A stretch of 64,000 nucleotides of DNA from Desulfatiglans anilini DSM 4660. GTDB lineage: Bacteria > Desulfobacterota > DSM-4660 > Desulfatiglandales > Desulfatiglandaceae. Below the pieces are notes generated by a model, which saw only the letters and a list, made by a program, of their open reading frames with translations, was not told where the DNA came from and ran no database searches. How positions within the stretch are numbered: position 1 is the stretch's first letter; each line of letters opens with the position of its first letter. The DNA lies in assembly GCF_000422285.1 (NCBI RefSeq), contig NZ_AULM01000001.1, positions 248,001 to 312,000 on the forward strand. Direction: 5' to 3'. The translations under genes and the position numbers were made by a program. Below are positions 21,959 through 37,628 of this stretch, piece after piece.

Positions 21959-22770
21959 AGGGCATTGACAGAAGGGAGTTTCTGAAGATAGGTGGTATGG
22001 CAGCCATAGCGGGGCTGGGAGGGAAGGCTGCGTTCGAGATCCTGGCACCCGGAAAGCTCGAGGCCGCGCAGCAGATCCCTTTGACGAAGGGCAAGCATTG
22101 GGCGATGGTCGTGGACACGACCAAGATGGACGACGCCTTGATGGATGTCTGCATCGAGGCGTGCCACAAAGAGCATAATGTTCCGAATCTCGGGAATCCG
22201 AAGGAAGAGATCAAATGGATCTGGAAAGAAACCTATGAGCATGCGTTTCCGGGGCAGGAGCACGAGTATATCGGTGAGCGTTTTCATGGAATGAATTTTC
22301 TGCTGATGTGCAATCACTGCACCAATCCGCCCTGTGTCCGAGTCTGTCCGACACAATCGACTTGGAAGCGGGAAGACGGCGTTGTCATGATGGACATGCA
22401 CCGGTGCATCGGTTGCCGGTTTTGCATGGCGGCCTGTCCGTATGGAGCGCGCAGCTTCAATTGGGGGGATCCGCAGCGGGTCCGCACCGATGAAAAGCTG
22501 ATGCCGATGAATCCAGGTTTCCCCCGCAATAAGGATTACCCGACGCGCAGCAAAGGTGTGGTTGAGAAATGCAACTTCTGCGCGGAGAGACTGGCCAAAG
22601 GGGATCAACCCGCCTGCGTCGAGGCCGCTGCCAAGGTGCGAAAAGGCGCACTGGTCTTTGGGGATCTGGCGGATCCGCATTCGGAAGTCAGGAAGGTCCT
22701 GAAGGAGAATTACACGATCCGGCGCAAGCCCGAACTGGGTACGGGGCCCAACTTATTTTTCATTGTATGA
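21955..22770 (+). CDS. dsrO: DsrO, periplasmic iron-sulfur subunit
   Basis: A 271-residue ferredoxin-like protein with a twin-arginine signal (DRREFLKIGGMAAIAGLGG, Arg6-Arg7), so it is exported folded. Cysteine clusters CNHCTNPPCVRVCP, CIGCRFCMAACP, CNFCAERLAKGDQPAC and an N-terminal CIEACHKEHN set supply four cubane clusters, as in HybA/DmsB-like electron-transfer subunits. It should pass electrons between DsrJ and the membrane protein DsrP. The ATG overlaps the dsrJ stop (ATGA). Confidence 0.95.
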   Translation: MKGIDRREFLKIGGMAAIAGLGGKAAFEILAPGKLEAAQQIPLTKGKHWAMVVDTTKMDDALMDVCIEACHKEHNVPNLGNPKEEIKWIWKETYEHAFPGQEHEYIGERFHGMNFLLMCNHCTNPPCVRVCPTQSTWKREDGVVMMDMHRCIGCRFCMAACPYGARSFNWGDPQRVRTDEKLMPMNPGFPRNKDYPTRSKGVVEKCNFCAERLAKGDQPACVEAAAKVRKGALVFGDLADPHSEVRKVLKENYTIRRKPELGTGPNLFFIV

Positions 22771-22777
22771 GGTGGTT

Positions 22778-23935
22778 ATGCTTGATACGGCGCTGAAGGG
22801 AACACAACGATACTGGGGATGGTTGATCTTCCTGCTGGTCTTGATGGGCATCGGATTGGGCTGCTATCTCTACCAGTTTCAGGAAGGCCTGAGGGTCACG
22901 GGGATGAGCCGGGATGTCTCCTGGGGCTTTTATATCGCCCAATTCACTTACCTGGTCGGTGTGGCGGCCGGAGGGGTGATGGTGGTTCTTCCCTATTACC
23001 TCCACGATTATAAGGCGTTTGGCCGGATCACCATTCTGGGCGAGTTTCTGGCTATCGCTGCGGTGGTTATGTGCCTGCTGTTCATTTTCGTCGATCTCGG
23101 GAACCCGGTGCGGATCATGAACGTGATCATGTATCCGACGCCGAATTCGATCCTTTTTTGGGATATGATCGTGCTGAACGGGTATCTGCTTCTGAATGTC
23201 CTGATCGGATGGAACGTGTTGAGTGCTGAGAGGAAGGGGATTCATTATCCTGGATGGGTGAAGACGCTGATCTACATCTCCATCCCGTGGGCCTTCAGCA
23301 TTCATACCGTGACGGCATTCTTGTACGCCGGTCTGCCCGGCCGACATTTCTGGCTGACCGCCATCATGGCGGCGCGCTTTCTTGCTTCGGCTTTCGCCGC
23401 CGGGCCTGCACTGCTGCTGCTGTTGTGCCTGATCGTGCGGCGGGTGAGTCGCTTCGACCCTGGAGAAAAGGCGGTCAGGACTCTCGGAGGAATTGTCACT
23501 TACGCCTTCATCCTGAACATCTTCTTCCTGCTGCTCGAGGTCTTCACGGCTTTTTACAGCCAGATCCCCGGGCACATGCACAGTTTTGTGTACCTGTTCG
23601 CCGGGTATGAGGGCTTTGGGAAACTCGTGCCATGGATGTGGACTTCGGTGGGTTTTGCGATCCTTGCTTTGATCCTATTGATTGTTCCCGGCACGCGGCG
23701 GAAGGATGACACCCTTGCCGTCGGTTGCGCTGCTGTCATCATATCCAGTTGGATCGACAAAGGCATGGGGCTTGTCATCGGCGGCTTCGTGCCGAACACC
23801 TTTGACCGGGTGTTCGAGTACTGGCCGACAACCCCTGAAATTTTAATTACCATCGGTGTGTGGGCGACTGGTTTCTTTGTTCTGACGGTGCTGTATAAGA
23901 TCGCTGTCTCGGTCAAGGAGGAGGTTGGGGCCTAA
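22778..23935 (+). CDS. dsrP: DsrP, NrfD-like membrane subunit
   Basis: The 385-residue integral membrane protein has about ten hydrophobic helices and belongs to the NrfD/PsrC family, which handles quinone without heme. Start ATG 22778 is the most natural; a TTG at 22763 in the dsrO end is also in frame. GAGGTGG lies just upstream, partly over the dsrO stop codon. It ends the operon, and a clear terminator follows 55 bases later. Confidence 0.94.
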   Translation: MLDTALKGTQRYWGWLIFLLVLMGIGLGCYLYQFQEGLRVTGMSRDVSWGFYIAQFTYLVGVAAGGVMVVLPYYLHDYKAFGRITILGEFLAIAAVVMCLLFIFVDLGNPVRIMNVIMYPTPNSILFWDMIVLNGYLLLNVLIGWNVLSAERKGIHYPGWVKTLIYISIPWAFSIHTVTAFLYAGLPGRHFWLTAIMAARFLASAFAAGPALLLLLCLIVRRVSRFDPGEKAVRTLGGIVTYAFILNIFFLLLEVFTAFYSQIPGHMHSFVYLFAGYEGFGKLVPWMWTSVGFAILALILLIVPGTRRKDDTLAVGCAAVIISSWIDKGMGLVIGGFVPNTFDRVFEYWPTTPEILITIGVWATGFFVLTVLYKIAVSVKEEVGA

Positions 23936-23989
23936 TAAGTCCTGCGGGGGCCCCATGCCCCTGTTTTGGGCTTTCATTTGTGGGTATGC

Positions 23990-24030
23990 GATGGCCTTGT
24001 TCCTGCTCGAACAAGGCCATCTTACTTTTG
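23990..24030 (+). terminator. Rho-independent terminator of the dsr operon
   Basis: GATGGCCTTGTTC (23990-24002), loop CTGCTC and the exact complement (24009-24021) form a 13-bp stem followed by TTACTTTTG. Confidence 0.85.
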
Positions 24031-24702: not shown

Positions 24703-25110
24703 TCAACCCTTCTTTTCGTGGCAGCCGTTGCACTTCTTGAAGGGAGCCTTGGCATCGTCGTTCTGCTCTTTGTGGCAATCCTTGCAGTTCTTATGGAACG
24801 CATTCTGCAGCTTCAGTGCTTCCTTGTCCGGTGGATCGGCTGGATGGCACTCGCTGCATTTCTGGACAGCATCACCTTCCTTCCAGACGTTTTTGCCATC
24901 CTGAATAACATGGTGGCAATCGTCACAGGTGGCGCCGTAGTCCTCGGCATGCTTCTTGTGGCTGAATTTTACCGGTCCTTGCTTATCTGCGGGGTATTCA
25001 TTCTGAAGGACGATTTCTTCCGCGACATCGGCGGCTGTGATGGCCCCCACTGCGCAGAGCATAAGGCCGCAAAAGACAACCGTCAGAAGGCTTAGGAATT
25101 TCTTGTTCAT
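24703..25110 (-). CDS. Class III tetraheme cytochrome c3 (periplasmic)
   Basis: The 135-residue precursor has a Sec signal (MNKKFLSLLTVVFCGLMLCAVGAITA, cleavage probably near residue 26). The mature part of about 110 residues has four heme sites CDDCH, CSECH, CKDCH and CNGCH, and extra histidines (FSHKKH, CHH) for the distal ligands. This is the size and pattern of type I cytochrome c3, the usual electron acceptor of periplasmic hydrogenases. It lies next to the hydrogenase genes but has its own strong promoter and terminator. AAAGGAGGTG precedes the ATG. Confidence 0.96.
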   Translation of the reverse strand: MNKKFLSLLTVVFCGLMLCAVGAITAADVAEEIVLQNEYPADKQGPVKFSHKKHAEDYGATCDDCHHVIQDGKNVWKEGDAVQKCSECHPADPPDKEALKLQNAFHKNCKDCHKEQNDDAKAPFKKCNGCHEKKG

Positions 25111-25711: not shown

Positions 25712-26209
25712 TCATTCTCCTCTCGCTTGGGGGACGCAGCCCAGCAGCTTGAGTTCAGCGAGGACCGCATCGACGAGTTCAGGGATTCGTTCTCGTACGG
25801 GTAGGGTGGGTTCGAGGCCGATCGACGCGATGTCGAGCGGTTCCACTCCCAGGATGACGGTCGAGGGAGGATCGCCGAGGACGCTCGCCAAAGCGAGCGC
25901 CTCGAGCAACCCCACTTGGTGAAGGGAGTTCTTTTGAAGGACCCGCCTGGGGATTTGTCCTCCCGCAAGGCGATAGAGAGTTCCCGGGGCACCCCCATTG
26001 CGAACGGCATCGATGACGATCAGATGCTTCGCTTCAGCGATGAAGCCCAGAAGATTCAGCCCCTGTACGCCCCCGTCCATGATTTCTACAGGAGGGTTGA
26101 AGGAATAGGCCTTTTCCAATGCAGCAATGGCGTGAATGCCGACCCCATCATCCGTGAGAAGGGGATTACCGACGCCAAGAACAAGGATAGGACTCTTTTG
26201 ATCCATCAT
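25712..26209 (-). CDS. hynD: Hydrogenase maturation endopeptidase (HyaD/HybD family)
   Basis: The 165-residue protein carries the family motif ILVLGVGNPLLTDDGVGI, a second acidic metal ligand region (VIDAVRNGG) and a His in SLHQVGLLEAL. Such nickel-recognising peptidases clip the C-terminal tail of the hydrogenase large subunit after nickel insertion. The expected substrate, HynA with a 15-residue tail, is encoded just upstream. The end of this gene lies 5 bases before the hypC start, so hypC translation is probably coupled to it. Confidence 0.93.
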   Translation of the reverse strand: MMDQKSPILVLGVGNPLLTDDGVGIHAIAALEKAYSFNPPVEIMDGGVQGLNLLGFIAEAKHLIVIDAVRNGGAPGTLYRLAGGQIPRRVLQKNSLHQVGLLEALALASVLGDPPSTVILGVEPLDIASIGLEPTLPVRERIPELVDAVLAELKLLGCVPQARGE

Positions 26210-26455: not shown

Positions 26456-28096
26456 TCACAGCACATGGATTTTGTAGACTTCGTTTGATCGGGGGTCGAT
26501 CATGTGCACAGCGCAGGCGATGCAGGGATCGAACGAATGCACGGTTCTCAAAACCTCCACGGGCCGTTTGGGATCGGCGACCGGTGTCCCGATCAACGCT
26601 TGTTCGACCGGTCCGAGCTTTCCATTGCTGCAGCGGGGCCCGAGATTCCAGGTGGATGGGACGACATATTGATAATTCTTTATTTTTTTGTCCTCGATTT
26701 CTATCCAGTGTCCCAGGGAGCCGCGCGGAACATCGTTGAGGCCGCAACCCGTCGCCTTGTCGGGCATGGTCCACGCCTGGTAGATGGTGTCCTGGCCCGC
26801 TTTCAGATTTTCCACCAGTTTCATGACCCAGCCCTCCATGGCGTCGCCTACCAGCACGGTTTCGAGGGCCCGCGCCGCAGTCCTGCCAAGAGTGGAAAAA
26901 AGGGCTGTGACGGGGACCCCCAATCGGGCAAGGGTGTCGTCAACTAGCTTCCGGGCGCTGTCCTTTCCCCTGGCGTATGCCACGAGCATCCTCGCCAGAG
27001 GGCCGACCTCGCATGGCTCGCCTTCATAACGCGGTGCCTTGATCCACGAGTAGCGGTTGTCGGGGTCGTAGTCGCCATGCTGGGGGGCGGTCTGTCCTTT
27101 ATATGGATGCTGATCGGTATTCCCCTCGTACCAGGAGTGGGAGATGTGTTCCGTGACCTTTTCCTGCTCCGCCGGTCTGACGGCGGCGATATCACGGTTC
27201 ATGATGACGCCCCGAGGCATGAATAGGCTCTCGGGTTCTTTTTCGCCTTCGGGAAAGTCGCCCCAGGCGAGGAAGTTGGAAGTGCCTCCCAGCGCAGCCC
27301 AATCTTTGTAAAAGGACCCGATCGCGAGGATGTCGGAAAGATAAACATTCCTGACGAAGGTTTGCGTCTCCTTCCAGAGATAGAGGAATTCGGCAATCCG
27401 ATCTGGAGTGAGGTCCATGGCGCAGGTGATTCCACCGACCACCAGGGACTGCAGATGCGGGTTCTTGGCACCGAAGATCGCGTGCATTTGGGCGGCCTTG
27501 GCTTGCAGGCGCAAGGCCTCGAGGTAATGAGAGACCGCCATCAGGTTGGCTTCCGGTGGGAGGGCGTAGGCCGAATGCCCCCAATAGGCATTGTTGAATG
27601 GCCCCAACTGGCCGCTCTCCACAAAGGTCTTGATGCGCTCCTGGACTTGTTTGAAATAGGCAGTCCCCCCCCATCGTGCCTGGCTCACGTTTTCAGCGAG
27701 GGCAGCGGTTTTTTGCGGGTCGGCTTTCAATGCACTCAGTATGTCGACCCAATCCAGGGCATGGAGATGATAGAAGTGAATGATGTGGTCGTGCTGGTAC
27801 TGGGTTCCATGGAGAAGATTCCGGAGGATGCGTGCGTTTTCAGGGACCTCGACACCTACGGCCGCTTCGATCGCCCGGATGGAGGCGAGATAGTGCACAT
27901 AGGTGCAGACGCCGCAGGATCGCTGTGTAAAAAGAGGGGCATCCCGCGGGTCCCTTCCCTTGAGGATCATCTCGATGCCTCTAAACATCTGCCCGGAACT
28001 CCAGGCATTGACGACCTTCCCGTCAGCGATTTCCACTTCGATCCGCAGGTGGCCTTCAATCCGGGTGACAGGATCGATGGTGATTCGTTTGGCCAT
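26456..28096 (-). CDS. hynA: Periplasmic [NiFe] hydrogenase large subunit
   Basis: The 546-residue subunit holds the Ni-Fe site, with ligands Cys61 and Cys64 (RSCGVC) and Cys525 and Cys528 (DPCIACAVH). All four are TGC or TGT Cys codons, so it is [NiFe], not [NiFeSe]. Maturation should cut after His531, releasing a 15-residue tail starting MIDPRS. Start ATG 28096 has AAAGGAG 6 bases upstream, and MAKRITIDPVTRIEGH is a typical N-terminus. It has no signal peptide and is exported with the Tat-bearing small subunit. It is separated from hynB by an unusual 482-base gap filled by repeat copy C. Confidence 0.96.
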   Translation of the reverse strand: MAKRITIDPVTRIEGHLRIEVEIADGKVVNAWSSGQMFRGIEMILKGRDPRDAPLFTQRSCGVCTYVHYLASIRAIEAAVGVEVPENARILRNLLHGTQYQHDHIIHFYHLHALDWVDILSALKADPQKTAALAENVSQARWGGTAYFKQVQERIKTFVESGQLGPFNNAYWGHSAYALPPEANLMAVSHYLEALRLQAKAAQMHAIFGAKNPHLQSLVVGGITCAMDLTPDRIAEFLYLWKETQTFVRNVYLSDILAIGSFYKDWAALGGTSNFLAWGDFPEGEKEPESLFMPRGVIMNRDIAAVRPAEQEKVTEHISHSWYEGNTDQHPYKGQTAPQHGDYDPDNRYSWIKAPRYEGEPCEVGPLARMLVAYARGKDSARKLVDDTLARLGVPVTALFSTLGRTAARALETVLVGDAMEGWVMKLVENLKAGQDTIYQAWTMPDKATGCGLNDVPRGSLGHWIEIEDKKIKNYQYVVPSTWNLGPRCSNGKLGPVEQALIGTPVADPKRPVEVLRTVHSFDPCIACAVHMIDPRSNEVYKIHVL

Positions 28097-28199
28097 GGCG
28101 ACTCCTTTCAAGATAAGGGCGGTTGAACGCGGGAGATATTCCGTGAACTTCGAGTGTTCAAGCGGCAGCCGGCCCCGCTCGAGTATCTGCTTCTAAACA

Positions 28200-28578: not shown

Positions 28579-29526
28579 TTAAAGCGGTTCGAAGAAGGGG
28601 CCCTTTTCGTCCCAGAATCCGGGCTCGCTGCAACCGATACAGGGATGGCCGGCCTCCACCGGCCAGCTGGTGCCGGCATTGAACTTTGCAGTCGGGCAGT
28701 TGTTGTACGTATCCGGCCCTTTGCAGCCCATCTTGTAGAGGCAGTAACCCATCTTGGCTTCCGGGGATCCGAATGATTCCACGTACTCGTCGTTTTCGTA
28801 ATGAGAGCGCCTGGGACACTGATCATGGATGGTGCGACCGTAGGCGAAAAGCGGACGCCCCTTTTCGTCCAGGTCCGGAAGCTGGCCGAGCAGGAGGTAG
28901 TTGACTACGGTTCCGACGAAATTGACAGGGTTCGGCGGGCAGCCAGGGATGTTGAGGGTCTTGATGCCCAAGGCGTCGCCGACACCCTTGTATCCGCCGG
29001 GATTCGGGGCGGCCGCCTGGATGCCGCCGAAGCTGGAGCAGGTCCCGATGCAAATAACGGAGGCGGCTTTGCGGCAGACATCGTTTGCGATTTCGAGGAA
29101 GGTCCTGCCAGCGATCTTTCCGTAGGCCCCATTGTGGGCGGTGGCCACAGCGCCTTCCACCACGCAGAGAAATTGCCCCTCATACTTTTTGACGGCGGCC
29201 TGCAGGTTGTCTTCGGCCTGATGACCGGCTGCAGCCATGATCGTTTCATGGTACTCCATGGAAAGGATCTCCATGAGCAGATCGTCGATCCAAGGATATT
29301 GTGATCTCAGAACCGCCTCCGAGCATCCCGTGCACTCGGCCAAGTGGAGCCATACGACGGGTGGCCTCTGCTTCGGGGCGGCGAAGACCTCTGCCACCTT
29401 CGGCACGAAAGAGGCTGAAAGCCCCATGGTTGCGGTCAGCATCCCGCAGTAGCGCATGAAATCGCGCCGGGAGATCGATCTCGCAGCCAGTCTGTCGTAG
29501 AAATCCCGTTTAAGCTGTTGATCCAT
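28579..29526 (-). CDS. hynB: Periplasmic [NiFe] hydrogenase small subunit (Tat-exported)
   Basis: The 315-residue precursor has a twin-arginine signal SISRRDFMRYCG (Arg20-Arg21) followed by a hydrophobic stretch ending near residue 50 (VFAAP). The mature part carries the cluster ligands: CTGCSEA and CIGTCSSFGG with GCPPNP for the proximal [4Fe-4S] cluster, then the CPRRSHYENDEYVE, CLYKMGCKGP and CIGCSEPGFWD regions for the medial and distal clusters. The His in CPRRSH is a likely distal-cluster ligand. It starts with GGAGGTGACTG just upstream and is the first hydrogenase gene of the operon. Confidence 0.96.
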   Translation of the reverse strand: MDQQLKRDFYDRLAARSISRRDFMRYCGMLTATMGLSASFVPKVAEVFAAPKQRPPVVWLHLAECTGCSEAVLRSQYPWIDDLLMEILSMEYHETIMAAAGHQAEDNLQAAVKKYEGQFLCVVEGAVATAHNGAYGKIAGRTFLEIANDVCRKAASVICIGTCSSFGGIQAAAPNPGGYKGVGDALGIKTLNIPGCPPNPVNFVGTVVNYLLLGQLPDLDEKGRPLFAYGRTIHDQCPRRSHYENDEYVESFGSPEAKMGYCLYKMGCKGPDTYNNCPTAKFNAGTSWPVEAGHPCIGCSEPGFWDEKGPFFEPL

Positions 29527-30064: not shown

Positions 30065-30482
30065 GAGTATCCATCGAAATTTTATTATAATTTGATGCTA
30101 TGCGCTTTTTATCCCATCGATTCCGCAAATGGCAGATGCCCCGGCCGGGCAGAGAGGACCCCTTCCCACCCCCGGCCTGGAGAAAGGCTTCCGGATGGGC
30201 GTGCCCGTTTCGGCAGGTCTGACACGAACGGCTCCAGGGTTGCGAAGAATGCCTGAACGAGGCGCAGCATGAACGGCAGGGGTTGTCTTGGAAACCGGCT
30301 CGCGCCGGGCATTTCCCGATGGACATCCAGAGGGGACAGAACCTGGTTTCGGGTGAAGCCCGGGCCGGGTTTGCATGCTCCGGTCAAACGGCAGCGCCCG
30401 GACGGCTCCGGGGAGTCTCCGCGCGGCGGATTGCGCCCAGGATTGAAACGCAGTGGGCGTGAGAGGCATTGGAGGGGGCATC

Positions 30483-31742
30483 ATGGCACGGTCGATCAGG
30501 TTTTGTCTCAGATGGGCCCTTTTTATGGGGATCTTCATGTTTGCGGCCGGTTGCGATGCACCGTTAGGGGTGGCCGATCGGCCGCCGGCGTCTTACCAGG
30601 TCGATGAGACGAGGATCCTCCTGGGTTCTTCGCTGGCCCTGGGAGGTCATGCGGGTTACCTGGGCACCCAGACCCTGCATGGCGCGCTCGCGTATCTCCA
30701 TCATGTCAACGAGCGTGGCGGTGTGCATGGCCGCCGGATCGAACTGATCGCTTATGACGATGGCTACGATCCGCCGCGCTGCGTCGCCAACACCCAGAAG
30801 CTGATTATCGAGGACCGGGTTTTCGCGCTTTTCTGTTATGTCGGTACGCCTACGACGGTCAAAATCGTGCCTCTGGTTGAAAAGGCGCGGATCCCTCTTG
30901 TGGGCATGTTTACGGGGGCTTATGCGCTGCGTGAACCGGTGAACCGTTACCTCTTCAATGTGAGGGCTTCCTACTACCAGGAGACGGCCGCCGCCGTGAA
31001 GCATCTGGTCGGCGATCTGGGCATTCGGCGTATCGCCGTGTTCTATCAGTACGACGCCTATGGTTTCGACGGCCTCAAAGGAACGGAACTGGCCCTGCGG
31101 GCATACGGGTTGACGCCCGTTGCCCGGGGATCCTATATCCGGGGGACTCTCGACGTGGAAGAGGGGCTTGCAAGGATCAAGGAGAGCGCCGCCGAGGCGG
31201 TCGTGATGATCGGCACCTACGAGCCCTGCGCCCGGTTCGTCCGGGAGGCGAGAGCAGATGAATTCAACCCCCTCTTCTACAACGTCTCGTTTGTCGGCGC
31301 CGATGAACTTGCCCGGCGGCTTGGCCCGGATGGGGACGGGGTGATAGTCAGCCAGGTCGTTCCGCCGCCTGAATCGGTCGAGATGCAGGCCCTTCTTCCG
31401 GGTGTCGCAGAATATGTGCGGTGTCTCGCCCGATTTTTCCCGGAAGACAAGCCGAATTTCGTCAGTTTGGAGGGTTACATCAACGCGAGGGTCCTGGTCG
31501 AGGGCCTGGAGCGGGCGGGCAGGGATGTCGACCGGGAGTCTTTCATCGATGCGGTCGAGACGATCAGGGATTGGGATATTGGGATCGCGAACACCATATC
31601 TTTCAGCCCGACGGACCACCAAGCGCTCGAAGAGGTCTACTTCACCCGTATCGAGGACGAGTCCTTTCACCTGATTTCGGACTGGCAGGTTGCCGGGTCG
31701 GCGAACCCCCCTTCCGTGAAGAGGCATTCAGCGGAAGAATGA
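30483..31742 (+). CDS. LivJ-like periplasmic binding lipoprotein (sensor operon)
   Basis: The 419-residue protein has a lipoprotein signal ending FMFAAGC with Cys24 as the lipidation site. The rest is a type I periplasmic binding fold (Peripla_BP_6): ILLGSSLALGGHAGYLGTQT, LIAYDDGYDPPRCVANTQKLI, VFALFCYVGTPT and GYINARVLVEGLERAG are typical of branched-chain amino acid/urea-type receptors. No permease or ATPase genes follow. Instead it overlaps a histidine kinase gene by 4 bases, so it is probably a ligand receptor for signalling, not transport. The start ATG at 30483 follows GGAGGGGGC. The ligand is unknown. Confidence 0.9.
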   Translation: MARSIRFCLRWALFMGIFMFAAGCDAPLGVADRPPASYQVDETRILLGSSLALGGHAGYLGTQTLHGALAYLHHVNERGGVHGRRIELIAYDDGYDPPRCVANTQKLIIEDRVFALFCYVGTPTTVKIVPLVEKARIPLVGMFTGAYALREPVNRYLFNVRASYYQETAAAVKHLVGDLGIRRIAVFYQYDAYGFDGLKGTELALRAYGLTPVARGSYIRGTLDVEEGLARIKESAAEAVVMIGTYEPCARFVREARADEFNPLFYNVSFVGADELARRLGPDGDGVIVSQVVPPPESVEMQALLPGVAEYVRCLARFFPEDKPNFVSLEGYINARVLVEGLERAGRDVDRESFIDAVETIRDWDIGIANTISFSPTDHQALEEVYFTRIEDESFHLISDWQVAGSANPPSVKRHSAEE

Positions 31743-33757
31743 TGGAGCGATTCGAAAATATCAGCCTCAAGAACAAGATCCTCTATTCGATTCTTGCCAT
31801 CATCTTGATGATGAGTTTTGGCAGCGCCCTGGTGACGCGGACGGTCCTGGTATCGAGCATGACCGAAGAACTCCGGCAGAGAGGCGTCGCTATTGCACGG
31901 GGTGTCGCCGATACGGGCCGGAGCTTTATTCTGACGGAAGATTATCCCAACCTCATCAGCCTTCTTTTCGATGCGGCCAGGCTCGAAGAGCGCAGGCAGT
32001 TGATCGCCTACATCTTCATCCTCGATGACGGGCATAACGTCATCGCCCACAATTTCATCCGTCCCTTTCCGGAAGGTCTTGCCGGTGCGAATGTCGTGAA
32101 GGCCGGCGAGAATTACAGCATACGCCTCCTGAATCTGGAGGGGATGAGCGCCTATGACATCGGAGTCCCGATCCTCGAGGGCATCTACGAGATCGGTGCA
32201 GTTCATGTGGGTCTGGACAAAAATTACATAGATGGTGTCATCGCCAATCTGCGGATGACCTATCTCGGGATTCTTTCTTCCATCGTGGTGATTTTTTTCC
32301 TGGTCAGCCGGTGGCTCTCCAAGTACATCACACGCCCGATCTGGGAGTTGACACAACTGGCGGACGAAATCAGCCGGGGAAATCTCGATGTCAAGTCGCA
32401 CCTGGGAAGCCGTCCGCGATGCTGGGAGCAACTTCGATGCCGGGAATACAGCTGTCCGGCCCATCACAATATCGAGGTCCCCTGCTGGTATGTCGACGGG
32501 ACCGAATTCATGGAGAAGGCGGCCTCCAAATTCCCCGAAAAGCTTCAGGTGTGTTATGACTGTGTCGTCTACAAGCGGCGGGCTCGCGACGAGGTCAAGC
32601 AGTTGGCCGATTCGCTGATGAACATGACCTTCCGGCTCAAGGCCTCGCAGGAGCGGCTGCAGGAATCCGAGGAGAAATACCGCTCCCTTTTCACGAGCGG
32701 CCCCAACCCGATCTTCGTGCTCGACCGGGAAACCCTGGATATACTGGACGCCAACCCCAGCGCCGAGGAAGTCTATGGATACGGGCGCCATGAACTGATC
32801 GGGCGCTCGTTTGCCGCCCTGGCCTGCCGCAGGGATGGACAGCCGGAAATCGAACATTTCCGGCCCGATGCCGAGGGTCATGTGAAACGGTCCTACTCGA
32901 AGGTCTGCCATTTCAGAAAGGGCGGAGATCCTTTTTTTGTCAATATTCATGCCGTACCATCCAAGGTCCAGGATCGGGACGTGATGATTGCCGCTGTCAC
33001 CGATATTACGGAGATGCTCGAAAAGGATGCGCAGCTCATTCAGGCCAGCAAGATGAGCACGCTGGGGGAAATGTCCGCCGGCATCGCGCACGAATTGAAC
33101 CAGCCGCTGAACGCGATCAAGATGGGAAGCGAATTCCTCCAGATGATGCTCGAGAAAGGGGAAACCGTTCCGAAGCAGGATCTCGACTGCGTTGCGAAGG
33201 AGGTGAGTGAGCAGGTCGATCGTGCGACGGGCATCATCAAGCGCCTCAGAGAATTCGGCCGCAAGGCGGATTTCGCCCGCGAAATGATCGATATCAACCT
33301 GCCGATCCGTAATGTCTACGAAATGATCGAAAGGCAGCTGAGCATCCAGAACATCGAGATGGAGCTGGATCTGGCGGAAACCCTTCCGCTGATCTACGGC
33401 CACGTCAATCGGTTGGAGCAGGTCATCTTTAACCTGATCGCCAATGCACGGGATGCCATCAATCAGAAGCGGGAGTCGACCGGCTTTTCCGGGGAGAGGA
33501 AGATCCGGGTCCGCTCATTTCTGGATCAGGGGCAGGCCGCCGTAAGCATTTCCGATACCGGGAGCGGCATTCCGGAGGCGCTGCGCCGGCGGATTTTCGA
33601 CGCCTTCTTCACGACCAAGCGAATGGGCCAGGGGATGGGGCTCGGCCTCTCTATTTCTCAGGGGATCGTCAATGACTACGGCGGGGAGATTTCCTTCGAG
33701 AGTGAGGAAGGCGTCGGAACGACCTTTACCTTGACCTTTCCTCCCGCCAAGGATTGA
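31739..33757 (+). CDS. Two-CW sensor histidine kinase with HAMP and PAS (sensor operon)
   Basis: A 672-residue membrane kinase. TM1 (about 14-33) and TM2 (about 174-192) enclose a periplasmic sensor domain of about 140 residues. HAMP follows (about 193-222), then a cysteine-rich insert with Cys228, 234, 239, 249, 272 and 275 (CWE...C...CP...CW...C-x2-C) like the two-CW domain of Desulfobacterota. A PAS domain (about 310-430), the H-box with His451 in GIAHELNQPLNAIK, the N-box (FNLIANARDAI) and the G-boxes (SDTGSGIP, GMGLGLSIS) complete the kinase. Start at 31739 or 31742. It is the likely partner of the upstream lipoprotein. Confidence 0.93.
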   Translation: MMERFENISLKNKILYSILAIILMMSFGSALVTRTVLVSSMTEELRQRGVAIARGVADTGRSFILTEDYPNLISLLFDAARLEERRQLIAYIFILDDGHNVIAHNFIRPFPEGLAGANVVKAGENYSIRLLNLEGMSAYDIGVPILEGIYEIGAVHVGLDKNYIDGVIANLRMTYLGILSSIVVIFFLVSRWLSKYITRPIWELTQLADEISRGNLDVKSHLGSRPRCWEQLRCREYSCPAHHNIEVPCWYVDGTEFMEKAASKFPEKLQVCYDCVVYKRRARDEVKQLADSLMNMTFRLKASQERLQESEEKYRSLFTSGPNPIFVLDRETLDILDANPSAEEVYGYGRHELIGRSFAALACRRDGQPEIEHFRPDAEGHVKRSYSKVCHFRKGGDPFFVNIHAVPSKVQDRDVMIAAVTDITEMLEKDAQLIQASKMSTLGEMSAGIAHELNQPLNAIKMGSEFLQMMLEKGETVPKQDLDCVAKEVSEQVDRATGIIKRLREFGRKADFAREMIDINLPIRNVYEMIERQLSIQNIEMELDLAETLPLIYGHVNRLEQVIFNLIANARDAINQKRESTGFSGERKIRVRSFLDQGQAAVSISDTGSGIPEALRRRIFDAFFTTKRMGQGMGLGLSISQGIVNDYGGEISFESEEGVGTTFTLTFPPAKD

Positions 33758-33767
33758 CCTGGCCCCC

Positions 33768-33899
33768 ATGAGCATTGATATGCGGGAAACCATGTGGAAG
33801 GCGCTCGCTGACGCAATGCTGGTGCATCAGTCGGAGCGCGGAGGCGCGGCGGGGGTCTTCCGCCCGCCCGGCTGCCGGAAAGGGGATTCGATCCGGTGA
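33768..33899 (+). CDS. Possible 43-residue leader ORF before the RND-kinase gene
   Basis: ATG 33768 opens a 43-codon frame (MSIDMRETMWKALADAMLVH...) whose stop overlaps the ATG of the next gene, so it could couple translation. It has no ribosome site of its own and its second half is Arg/Pro/Gly-rich, so it may be chance. Confidence 0.25.
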   Translation: MSIDMRETMWKALADAMLVHQSERGGAAGVFRPPGCRKGDSIR

Positions 33900-36883
33900 T
33901 GATCGCCTCCTATTACAAATCCGCATTGAAGCAGCAGTGGATCCGGCTGATTCTAGACCATCCCCGCTGGACGATCGGCTTCCTCCTGATGCTGACCCTC
34001 TTCTTCATCTGGCATATTCCCCATCTTCGGTTCCAGTCCTCCCTGTATGATCTGGCGGTCGAAGACCTGCCGGAGACCCGCCGGTATGAGACATTCAAGA
34101 AGATCTTCGGGACGGAAGAGGTGATTCTCGTCGTGGCCCGGACGAAAGGGGTGTTCGAGACCGGTGCCTTCAAAGCAATCGAAAAACTGGCGGATCGCCT
34201 GGGGGAGATCGAGGGGGTTCGCAGGGTGATCAGTCTGCCCGGCATCAAACGGGATGTGGAGCTTTTCGGCATCAAGAGCCTGAGGGAGTTCGAGCAGATC
34301 CTTCAACCGGTCGAACTGATCTGGAAGAGCCTCCTTTCCGAAAACCGAAAAAACACCTCCGTCATGCTGCTGCTCGACGACTCCGAAGACCGGCGGGCGG
34401 TCGTGAACGCAGTGCAGAAGGAAATAGAGCGGGTACGGGAAGGGATCGATCTGTATCAGATTGGAATGCCGGTTGTTTCGGAGGCCCTTTCCCGTTTTAC
34501 GGAAAGAGATTTTCTGCATCTGCCTCCCTTGACATTCGGTGTGATTGCGGTGTTGCTGTTTCTGTTTTTCAGAGACCTTCGGGGGATGTTGATCCCGCTC
34601 GGCATGGTGTTGATGGTGCTGATCTGGGTGTTCGGCCTGATGGGCATGACGGGCGAACCCCTGACCATGCTGACCATGATCGTGCCCGTTTTTCTGATTG
34701 CCGTCGGAACGGCCTACTGTATGCATGTCTGGTCCATGTACCTCGAGGAACTCGAGGACGCGGTCTCGAACAGACAGGCGGTGATCCAATCCTTTTCGCG
34801 CAGCGCGCTGCCGATGGTCCTGGTGGTGGCCACCACCATCATCGGCCTGGGTTCGCTTTTCGTCAGCCGGATCGAGGGGATCCGGTCCTTCGCGCTTTTC
34901 TCATGCCTGGGAATGGTTTGCCTCCTGGTCGTGATCTTGACCTTTCTCCCCGCGCTCCTGACGGCGCTGCCGACACCGCGGAGCCGTCTATCATCGATCT
35001 CACGACCCCACGCATGCGTTGCCCGATTCCTCGAGGCGATTGTCCGGATCGATGTCGCGCATCAGAGGATGACCCTCCCCCTCCTGGCGGTGGTCATCCT
35101 CCTGGCGTTCTGGGGGATGACGCGCATCCGCGTCGAGACGAACCCTGTCGCCTATTTCAGGGAGCAAAGTGAAATCAGCCGGCATTTCCATGACGCGCAC
35201 CGGGATATGACCGGCTCCTTCCCTGTGAATGTAGTGGTGGAGGGAGAGGGGGAGGGCTATTTCGAAGACCCGGCCCATTTGAGAAAGGTCGAAGAGATCC
35301 AGGACTATCTGCAAACGCTCGAGGGTGTCGACAAGACCCTGTCCTTCCTGGACTATCTCAAACTGGTCCGCTATGCCCTCAATCGGTTCGATCCGAATCA
35401 CTATGCCCTGCCGGAAGAGGCCTTCGAGGTCCGGATGCTGGTGAACAGCTACCAGACGATCCTCGGGACCGACATGCTGCGCACCTATATGGACGAGGAT
35501 CTTTCCAGAACCGGCATTCTCCTGCTGACCCGCCTTTCCAGTTCTGCGGAGTTCCTGCGGATGAAATCTAGGATTGAAGCACACTGCAATTCGGTTCTGG
35601 GAGGGTCCCCCCGCGTCGATGCCACGGGCTTCGGCATGGTCATATCCGCCAGCAGCGAATGGGTGACGCGGGGGCAGGTGAGCAGCCTCTGGATCACCGT
35701 CGCTGCGGTGTTTGCATTAATGCTGGTGTTGTTCGTTTCGCTCAGAGTAGGCGTCGTCGCGATTCTGGCCAATTTTTTCCCGATCATCGTGAATTTCGGT
35801 CTAATGGGATGGCTGGGGATCAAGTTGTCCATGGTGACGAGCCTGATAGCCGGGATAGCCATCGGGCTGGCGGTGGATGACACCATTCATTACCTCGTCG
35901 GGTTCAGCCGCGAGCTCAAAAAGGACCTGAACAAGCAGCGCGCCTTGACCGATACCCTCTTGCGTGTCGGCCGCCCGATGGTTTATACCACACTCACGAT
36001 CGGCTCGGGCTTTGCAGTCCTGCTGTTTTCCCATTTCGAACCGACGGCCGTCTTCGGCCTGATGATGGCCGTCACCCTGCTCGCGGCCCTGGTGGGGGAT
36101 CTCGTTTTGCTGCCATCCTTGATGCTGCATGTCGATCTGGTGACGGTGTGGGATTTATTGAAGCTGATGCGGCCGCTCGGGGGGGTGGCGGGCGGAGTGG
36201 CTCACGAATTGAACCAGCCGTTGAATGCCATCAAGATGGGCAGCGAATATCTCAAGATGACGCTCGATCGCGGGGAGGAGATTTCCCGGGAGCAGCTCAG
36301 GCAGATTGTTCAGGAGATCGACGAACAGGTCGACCGGGCAAGCGGGACGATCAAGCGCCTATGCAGGTTCGACCAGAAGGCGGATGTCGACTGCGAGGAG
36401 GTGGACCTGAATGCCGCTGCTCAGGAGGTGCTGGCGATCCTCGGGCATCAGCTGGCGCTCGAAAACATCCGGCTCGAGCTGAATTTCGAGCCGGATCTGC
36501 CCCCTGTCCTCGCCAACGTGAACCGGATCGGGCAGGTCGTCTTCAATCTTCTGAACAACGCCCGGGAAGCGATCCTGCGCAAACGGAGGGCCGGAGGCGA
36601 GACGGCGGAAGACCATATCGGTGTGCGCACCTTCAGGGCGGGCAAGCGGGCGGTGGGGTTGGAGATATCGGACACCGGCCCGGGTATTCCCGAGGAACGC
36701 CTGAGCAGAGTCTTCGAACCTTTCTATACAACGAAAAAGGGTGGCGAGGGATTGGGGCTAGGGCTTTCCATCGTCTATGGTATAGTCAAGGCCTATGGGG
36801 GCCGTGTCCGAATACGGAGCGAGGAAGGCCGGGGAAGCGCTTTCAGGATTCTGTTCCCGGTGCCGGGGGAGGAAAGGGGATAA
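33899..36883 (+). CDS. RND/MMPL-type transporter fused to a C-terminal histidine kinase
   Basis: One uninterrupted 994-residue frame from ATG 33899 (GTG 33896 also possible). Residues 1-765 are an apparently complete RND-superfamily protein of the MMPL class: TM1 (about 27-44), a first periplasmic loop, a bundle at about 214-380, TM7 (about 407-424), a second loop, and a last bundle (about 612-755) with GIAIGLAVDDTIHYLVGFSREL. Residues 766-994 are a kinase core without PAS: His769 in GVAHELNQPLNAIK, N-box FNLLNNAREAI, G-boxes SDTGPGIP and GLGLGLSIV. The phosphorylation region is nearly identical to that of the preceding kinase. The fusion implies that transport state or a bound lipid-like substrate controls phosphorylation. 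Confidence 0.9.
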   Translation: MIASYYKSALKQQWIRLILDHPRWTIGFLLMLTLFFIWHIPHLRFQSSLYDLAVEDLPETRRYETFKKIFGTEEVILVVARTKGVFETGAFKAIEKLADRLGEIEGVRRVISLPGIKRDVELFGIKSLREFEQILQPVELIWKSLLSENRKNTSVMLLLDDSEDRRAVVNAVQKEIERVREGIDLYQIGMPVVSEALSRFTERDFLHLPPLTFGVIAVLLFLFFRDLRGMLIPLGMVLMVLIWVFGLMGMTGEPLTMLTMIVPVFLIAVGTAYCMHVWSMYLEELEDAVSNRQAVIQSFSRSALPMVLVVATTIIGLGSLFVSRIEGIRSFALFSCLGMVCLLVVILTFLPALLTALPTPRSRLSSISRPHACVARFLEAIVRIDVAHQRMTLPLLAVVILLAFWGMTRIRVETNPVAYFREQSEISRHFHDAHRDMTGSFPVNVVVEGEGEGYFEDPAHLRKVEEIQDYLQTLEGVDKTLSFLDYLKLVRYALNRFDPNHYALPEEAFEVRMLVNSYQTILGTDMLRTYMDEDLSRTGILLLTRLSSSAEFLRMKSRIEAHCNSVLGGSPRVDATGFGMVISASSEWVTRGQVSSLWITVAAVFALMLVLFVSLRVGVVAILANFFPIIVNFGLMGWLGIKLSMVTSLIAGIAIGLAVDDTIHYLVGFSRELKKDLNKQRALTDTLLRVGRPMVYTTLTIGSGFAVLLFSHFEPTAVFGLMMAVTLLAALVGDLVLLPSLMLHVDLVTVWDLLKLMRPLGGVAGGVAHELNQPLNAIKMGSEYLKMTLDRGEEISREQLRQIVQEIDEQVDRASGTIKRLCRFDQKADVDCEEVDLNAAAQEVLAILGHQLALENIRLELNFEPDLPPVLANVNRIGQVVFNLLNNAREAILRKRRAGGETAEDHIGVRTFRAGKRAVGLEISDTGPGIPEERLSRVFEPFYTTKKGGEGLGLGLSIVYGIVKAYGGRVRIRSEEGRGSAFRILFPVPGEERG

Positions 36884-36887
36884 ACCG

Positions 36888-37628
36888 ATGGACCGTAAAC
36901 CGAAGATCCTTGTCATCGACGACGAGAACGCGAATCTGACCATGTTTCGCCTCTTTCTCTCGGCATACGGCTATGAGGTCCTCCTGGCCGAAAACGGCAC
37001 CGGGGGGTTGGCGCTTTTCGAGAAAGAAAGGCCCCGGATCGTTTTTACCGACATCAAGATGCCCGGTATCGACGGATTCGAGGTCCTGCAGCGGATCAAG
37101 GCGGCCGACCCGGGGACCCAGGTGATCGTGATTACAGGCCACGGTGACATGGATCTGGCGCTCCAGGCGCTCGATCTCGATGCCACGGATTTCATCAACA
37201 AACCGATCAGCCGCTCAGCCCTCGATTCGGCTCTGGACAGGGCGGAAAAGCGGCTGAAGCGTGTGGAGGAGCCTTCCGGTTCTGTATCTTCGTTTCGAAA
37301 AGAGGGGGGGGTCACTATCTTCGAGATTGTCGGACGGCTGGATGGAAAAACGGGGGCCGAGCTCCTGCAGGACTGGCGGGTAGCCAAAGAGGAGGCGGGC
37401 GGGGTGCTCATCCATTTTGCGGCTACGGCCGGTATGAACAGCGCAGGAATCGCCGTCCTGATTCAACTGCTTTCAGATGCTGCAAAAAGCGGCCGGAAAG
37501 CGGTCTTGACAGGGGTAACCGAAAATCTCCGGGAGATCCTGACGATGGTGGGGATTACCCGCCTCGCGCCTGTTTTTGAACAAGAGCAAGAAGGGCTGCT
37601 GCATCTGAAGAAATCTGTTTGCAGGTGA
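36888..37628 (+). CDS. Response regulator with REC receiver and C-terminal STAS domain
   Basis: The 246-residue protein begins at ATG 36888 with GGAGGAAAGGGG upstream, 4 bases after the RND-kinase stop. The receiver domain has Asp11-Asp12, phospho-acceptor Asp55, Thr83 and Lys105. The C-terminal part (about 138-235) has the STAS pattern (GGVTIFEIVGRLDG ... AGMNSAGIAVLIQLLSDAAKSGRKAVLTGV), with Ser185 at the position phosphorylated in SpoIIAA-type anti-anti-sigma factors. There is no DNA-binding domain. The output is thus probably partner binding (anti-sigma/STAS type), not direct transcription control. Confidence 0.92.
   Translation: MDRKPKILVIDDENANLTMFRLFLSAYGYEVLLAENGTGGLALFEKERPRIVFTDIKMPGIDGFEVLQRIKAADPGTQVIVITGHGDMDLALQALDLDATDFINKPISRSALDSALDRAEKRLKRVEEPSGSVSSFRKEGGVTIFEIVGRLDGKTGAELLQDWRVAKEEAGGVLIHFAATAGMNSAGIAVLIQLLSDAAKSGRKAVLTGVTENLREILTMVGITRLAPVFEQEQEGLLHLKKSVCR

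Follow-up and report, generated by a model that had tools for sequence, protein, structure and literature searches.

An RND transporter fused to a histidine kinase in Desulfobacterales, seemingly a pump turned sensor that probably helps control hydrogen metabolism

We found that Desulfatiglans anilini DSM 4660 encodes, in a single chain, an entire RND transporter domain and the catalytic core of a histidine kinase, and that this fusion is conserved among Desulfobacterales, shares its kinase core with kinases encoded nearby, and is linked to [NiFe] hydrogenase genes. The stretch of DNA analyzed here (the window) comprises 64,000 nucleotides (contig NZ_AULM01000001.1, positions 248,001 to 312,000), and positions below are those of the window unless another locus is named. 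The protein seems to be a pump turned into a sensor, and it probably acts as one in helping control hydrogen metabolism. With moderate confidence, we favor the reading that the fusion is an RND-based transceptor kinase, which would feed, as one of several sensors, into a two-component network controlling H2 metabolism. Most RND proteins have been investigated as pumps, and the animal proteins Patched and NPC1 as sterol-linked signal proteins; the field has yet to settle how an RND body relays a signal. A bacterial RND body joined to a kinase through a fixed linker offers a simple biochemical measure of such a conformational signal, namely autophosphorylation.

The fusion gene (33899-36883, plus strand) is open without a break from ATG 33899, or from an alternative GTG start at 33896, to the stop at 36881-36883, and its product measures 994 aa from the ATG. 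A Pfam scan found MMPL (PF03176) in two stretches (113.5 bits, cut-off 20.5), HisKA at residues 764-824 (36188-36370; 40.3 bits, cut-off 26.9), and HATPase_c at residues 874-989 (36518-36865; 86.7 bits, cut-off 26.4), with no PAS, no HAMP, and nothing between MMPL and HisKA. The initial annotation had described a complete RND body joined in frame to a kinase core, and the open frame and domain scores bear this out. The phospho-accepting His769 (HELNQPL) and the ATP-binding boxes it had called intact are all there (Asn887, the G1 box DTGPGI, the F box, and the G2 box GLGLGL) and are kept across nine aligned fusions, so that the protein has the full H, N, G1, F, and G2 set of a two-component sensor histidine kinase. 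The GLAVDDTIHYL segment likewise lies in the transporter half, at residues 656-666, with the Asp pair of TM10 at residues 660-661. The transporter had been drawn as reaching residue 765; it stops near 742-755, and the body together with the beginning of the LVTxWDLL linker, as delimited by Pfam, fold, tree, and motif survey, occupies residues 1-756 (33899-36166). An entire transporter domain and a kinase core in one chain give the protein the architecture of a transporter-kinase transceptor, and the absence of SLC5 and STAC domains from the Pfam scan places it outside the SLC5/STAC kinase family.

A scan of genome contigs returned 0 matches with the single protein as query and 80 loci with an alignment as query. 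Altogether, 21 RND-kinase fusions were identified, all in Desulfobacterales: the window gene, an orthologue of 97% identity from the same genus (genome G039, a single 4.8 Mb contig), and 19 other loci with the same join at about 44-52% identity. Two of the 20 further loci are in cultured strains, NaphS2 (ADZZ01000415) and Desulfatibacillum alkenivorans DSM 16219 (G117). In all 21, exactly 18 residues lead from the Trp of the linker (LVTxWD) to the phospho-accepting His (W751 to His769 in the window protein, where the junction from LVTVWDLL to the H-box spans 36137-36205), which is the expectation if the linker passes on a conformational signal. Two of the fusions are incomplete: L045 is missing its 5' end, and the frame of L047 (2247-4739 in reverse-strand coordinates, from a metagenome bin) stops past the first DHp helix, because of a frameshift or else an error in the contig.

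An AlphaFold2 model built from the window protein and 23 relatives (mean pLDDT 80, pTM 0.66) consisted of a body of 12 TM-like helices and two porter domains, with TM12 at residues 714-742, and a kinase half with a DHp hairpin (765-825) followed by the ATPase domain. In Foldseek searches of the PDB, the body was matched best by MmpL4/5 (E about 1e-23) and also by MmpL3, HpnN, Dispatched, NPC1, and Patched. Model and matches thus agree with the proposed 12-helix MMPL-type body, and the likeness to Patched/NPC1-like proteins holds at the level of the fold; MmpL3/4/5, HpnN, and Patched/NPC1/Dispatched are, however, only about 12-17% identical to the body, and none has a histidine kinase. A profile search of the PDB matched kinases to the tail and MmpL to the body, with no single chain covering both. 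Score, 12 TM helices, and two porter domains assign the protein to the MMPL family (PF03176) of the RND superfamily; with 238.6 bits against a curated cut-off of 351.9, it is related to, and by that model not a member of, the HAE3 subfamily (TIGR00921). The last helix had been thought to run straight into the H-box with no PAS or HAMP between. The absence of both domains stood; the junction was predicted as a low-confidence linker (750-766, pLDDT <50), though fixed in length, and not as one helix continuing from TM12. An unbroken TM12-DHp helix has no support in the model.

In a tree of the RND bodies alone, the window protein fell within a fully supported clade of 42 rows, and every complete member carries a signaling tail C-terminal to the same LVTxWDLL linker. 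This tail can be a histidine kinase; otherwise it is a cNMP-binding domain, alone or together with a GGDEF domain of degenerate signature (DGQQF, DSNRF, or GGNQF in the alignment). The cNMP-tailed sister proteins differ from the fusion in this cytoplasmic part; their closest bodies are 47-55% identical to it, with the same linker and the same hydrogenase surroundings. In the tails of L016/L067, L018/L083, and L020-L024, the phosphate cassette of the cNMP-binding domain looks intact (GEM...RSA) and is followed by the degenerate GGDEF domain. Both paralogues can occur in one genome (e.g., G037, G040, G059, G062, G117, and G444). A single origin of the kinase tail was unsupported on the RND tree, where the kinase label required three changes and 0% of 200 bootstrap trees managed with one; on the kinase-core tree, the fused cores formed one clade (85/92, recovered in 88% of bootstrap trees). 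Both patterns are explained if paralogues exchanged their tails, and from these trees we read the tails as having been swapped in this way. A broader and more tentative proposal, to which we give less than even credence, is that the RND body of Desulfobacterales might be a dedicated receptor with swappable outputs (histidine kinase or cNMP/GGDEF-like), the membrane arm of a hydrogenase-controlling network and a bacterial counterpart of Patched-like signaling.

The transporter half is best read as the sensory part, and the main rival to this is a pump with an attached reporter. The fusion would then be a functioning RND exporter, its kinase tail would control that transport or report on it, and sensing would be secondary, as in the transporting transceptor CbrA; the substrate pumped would be a hydrophobic or envelope compound required at the place where periplasmic hydrogenase and cytochromes operate. 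A motif survey found the TM10 Asp pair in 18/18 kinase-tail members, 21/21 cNMP/GGDEF-tail members, and 39 of 44 tail-less relatives, so transport by the protein is conceivable, and the body is of full length and resembles the MmpL/HpnN lipid exporters. The acidic residue of TM4, missing in kinase-tail members, is missing in most tail-less relatives too, and we rejected its loss as the mark of a non-pump. The commonest sister tail, the cNMP-binding domain, is usually an input, and these tails could be inputs to a pump, not outputs; CbrA itself retains transport (PMC7096432). We nevertheless consider the exporter reading somewhat unlikely, because a signaling tail is present on all complete clade members, the linker is of fixed length, neither an adaptor gene of the periplasmic kind nor one for an outer-membrane factor was observed next to the window gene, and the GGDEF motif of the sister tails is degenerate.

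The fusion gene belongs to a plus-strand operon (30453-37628) that begins with a periplasmic substrate-binding protein (Peripla_BP_6, 30453-31742) of the amino-acid type. Its gene overlaps by 13 bases the start of a separate sensor kinase gene (31730-33757; sCache_3_2-HAMP-PAS-HisKA-HATPase), whose core is 48-50% identical to the fused core. Between HAMP and PAS, this kinase has a Cys-rich stretch (CWEQLRCREYSCPAHHNIEVPCWYVDG...CYDC) that is possibly metal- or redox-binding. Four bases past the fusion stop begins the gene for a 246-aa receiver-STAS protein (36888-37628, plus strand; Response_reg 103 bits, STAS 40.6 bits), the probable partner. Many relatives have a bare single-domain receiver in its place, and the STAS domain makes a partner-switching output possible. 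The receiver gene is conserved beside L038, L039, and L046; binding protein, sCache kinase, and receiver form a linked set in L038 and L046 as in the window, and homologues of the binding protein also lie near L058, L060, and L065. The intergenic regions checked for repeats had none.

The kinase-core tree grouped the cores of the fusions with those of the sCache kinases and of the PAS kinases next to a second, sensory-type hydrogenase (regS/regL) in a 30-row clade (97/96) apart from the window genome's other kinases, the fused core being sister to the cores of these two neighbor kinases. Partner choice of histidine kinases is largely set in DHp helix 1, in the 16 residues after the H-box. Over these residues (H+7 to H+22), the fusions are 57% identical to the neighbor kinases and 59% identical to one another, as against 16% to other kinases. 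Near-identical specificity helices and a conserved receiver gene nearby lead to the prediction that three kinases address one receiver, that is, that the RND-kinase, the sCache/PAS kinase, and the PAS kinase of the sensory-type hydrogenase probably all feed one response regulator.

Divergent from the fusion operon, a minus-strand operon (29526-24709) encodes a periplasmic-type [NiFe] hydrogenase. It comprises hynB, the small subunit with a twin-arginine signal (28579-29526; TIGR00391, 408.9 bits), hynA, the large subunit (26456-28111; NF033181, 604.4 bits, cut-off 600), a maturation protease of the HyaD/HycI type (25715-26203; tblastn 57% to the L067 protease, family HycI), and a class III cytochrome c (24709-25110; tblastn 57%, Pfam of the homologue). 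Counting a hydrogenase gene anywhere within the stretch retrieved around each locus, we found hydrogenase genes at 33 of 48 clade loci and at 0 of 45 other RND loci of the same scan (Fisher p 7e-14). By class, they flanked 11/19 kinase-tail and 22/29 cNMP-tail loci of the clade, 0/8 cNMP-tail loci outside it, and 0/37 tail-less RND loci; the eight kinase-tail loci with no hydrogenase gene in the stretch examined include some on short contigs. Among the order's 85 genomes, 27 have the RND clade and 58 do not; HynA of this type (identity of about 72% or more) was present in 24 of the former and 9 of the latter (p 8e-11).

The arrangement of these genes varies. Desulfatibacillum has the order hynB-hynA-protease-RND/HK-sensory-type hydrogenase-kinase; L153 and L154 have hynB-hynA-protease-RND/HK-regS-regL-HK(-RR); L068 has RND/HK-RR-regS-regL-PAS HK; and L067, L052, L053, L072, and L058 have hynB-hynA-RND/cNMP/GGDEF-protease-cytochrome c. 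That linkage is kept while gene order varies counts against mere inheritance of one arrangement. The sensory-type hydrogenase stands next to a PAS kinase in L060, L068, L069, L090, and L153. Its regS/regL pair is without a signal peptide, regL ends just past a DPCLVC-x-VH motif, and the closest solved relative of regL in the PDB is Hydrogenase-2 (Huc); pair and adjoining kinase look like a putative H2-sensing hydrogenase of the HoxBCJ kind. No sensory-type hydrogenase was found in the window genome.

The linkage could instead be a bystander of one ancestral gene order, with the fusion sensing some other signal such as the substrate of the neighboring binding protein. The repeated association of binding protein, sCache kinase, and receiver, and the binding protein homologues at further loci, are in keeping with this, as are NaphS2 and its close relatives, in which the fusion lies with an sCache kinase, a receiver, and lipid/CoA genes and with no hydrogenase nearby. 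We regard it as unlikely, given that the linkage survives at least four gene orders and both tail types and that the fusion and the kinase of the sensory-type hydrogenase have a common kinase core.

Returning to the transceptor kinase, we infer its signal, direction of signaling, and output as follows. The MMPL/RND body would be the input module, with a ligand, or the proton gradient or energy state of the membrane, acting at the 12-helix body or the porter domains. The stimulus would move TM12 together with the fixed-length linker, and this movement would toggle the DHp/ATPase core from the kinase to the phosphatase state or back. From gene adjacency and the shared DHp helix, the phosphoryl group would pass to the receiver encoded alongside, which is RR-STAS in the window and in many relatives a receiver of a single domain. 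As many as three sensors built on one kinase core (the RND-kinase, the binding protein/sCache-PAS kinase, and the PAS kinase by the sensory-type [NiFe] hydrogenase) would converge on one receiver, and the network would serve periplasmic H2 oxidation by hynBA. These receivers have no DNA-binding domain, so that a direct effect on hydrogenase transcription would be hypothetical.

A narrower alternative makes the RND body a proton-motive-force sensor, its TM10 Asp pair reading the gradient from H2 oxidation and its kinase feeding back on the hydrogenase. The clade keeps the pair without exception, and its loci are linked to class III cytochrome c and to hydrogenases of the periplasmic type that bear a twin-arginine signal; ordinary relatives, however, keep the same pair, which is thus not special to the fusions, and we find this version quite improbable. 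An assembly or annotation artefact, or a chance isolated fusion without function, has a negligible likelihood even though the window assembly is in 107 contigs and some relatives are metagenome bins: the 20 other loci with the same join and identical spacing, isolates among them, and the orthologue on the single G039 contig rule out an assembly chimera and agree with the initial annotation that a sequencing error was improbable, and the catalytic boxes show no decay.

The fusion resembles known transporter-kinase fusions and would work as they do, yet it uses an unrelated transporter fold. In Ks-Amt5 of Kuenenia stuttgartiensis, an ammonium transporter fused to a histidine kinase has become an ammonium sensor and lost transport; as here, a whole N-terminal transporter precedes DHp/CA with no PAS, HAMP, or STAC (PMC5764959). 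Its Amt fold (a trimeric ammonium channel) has no shared ancestry with a 12-TM RND body, and the loss of transport is one shown for Ks-Amt5. CbrA (SLC5, STAC, PAS, and kinase; PMC7096432, PMC13022988) and CrbS are likewise transporter-kinase transceptors that have a two-component partner and function in metabolism (PMC7096432, PMC13022988, PMC5715377); their transporter has the SLC5 symporter fold, and STAC (in CbrA also PAS) precedes the kinase where the RND fusion has only a short fixed linker. The H2-sensing system of Ralstonia eutropha, HoxBC-HoxJ-HoxA (PMC6978683), has parallels in several relatives where the fusion is accompanied by a PAS kinase, to whose core the fused core is sister, and by a hydrogenase that lacks both a signal peptide and a C-terminal extension. 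HoxJ is not a transporter fusion, HoxA binds DNA unlike the single-domain or RR-STAS receivers here, and the window genome itself is missing the sensory-type hydrogenase. The initial annotation had called the fusion very unusual; this holds for RND proteins, with none in the PDB or in the open literature searched, and not for transporter-kinase fusions at large, as CbrA and Ks-Amt5 show. That targeted open-literature search, with most subscription papers outside its reach, returned neither an RND-kinase fusion nor a report on RND, cNMP, and hydrogenase together. That annotation did not include the second type of tail, the linkage to hydrogenases, or the kinase core common to fusion and neighbors, and the linkage hints at an unstudied layer of control for H2 use in environmentally important sulfate reducers, hydrocarbon degraders included.

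Two observations concern the hydrogenase operons themselves. Several hynA genes have in-frame TGA at Cys codons of the N-terminal L1 motif within an otherwise full 550-aa frame: both codons (QRT-TGA-GV-TGA-T) in L067 (6244-7893), L083 (5876-7525), and L053 (5942-7591), all on the plus strand, and one in L072 (2868-4523) and L060 (5264-6910); the window HynA reads RSCGVC. The codons are predicted to encode selenocysteine, possibly double, at the L1 site and not at the usual C-terminal one. Finally, in L052, L053, L073, and L087, homologues of two plus-strand genes at 22000-24000 of the window (about 255 and 390 aa) lie by the hydrogenase/RND operon; of the two, the second resembles an NrfD/DsrP-type membrane subunit, and from this likeness a DsrMKJOP-like complex may adjoin the hydrogenase operon.
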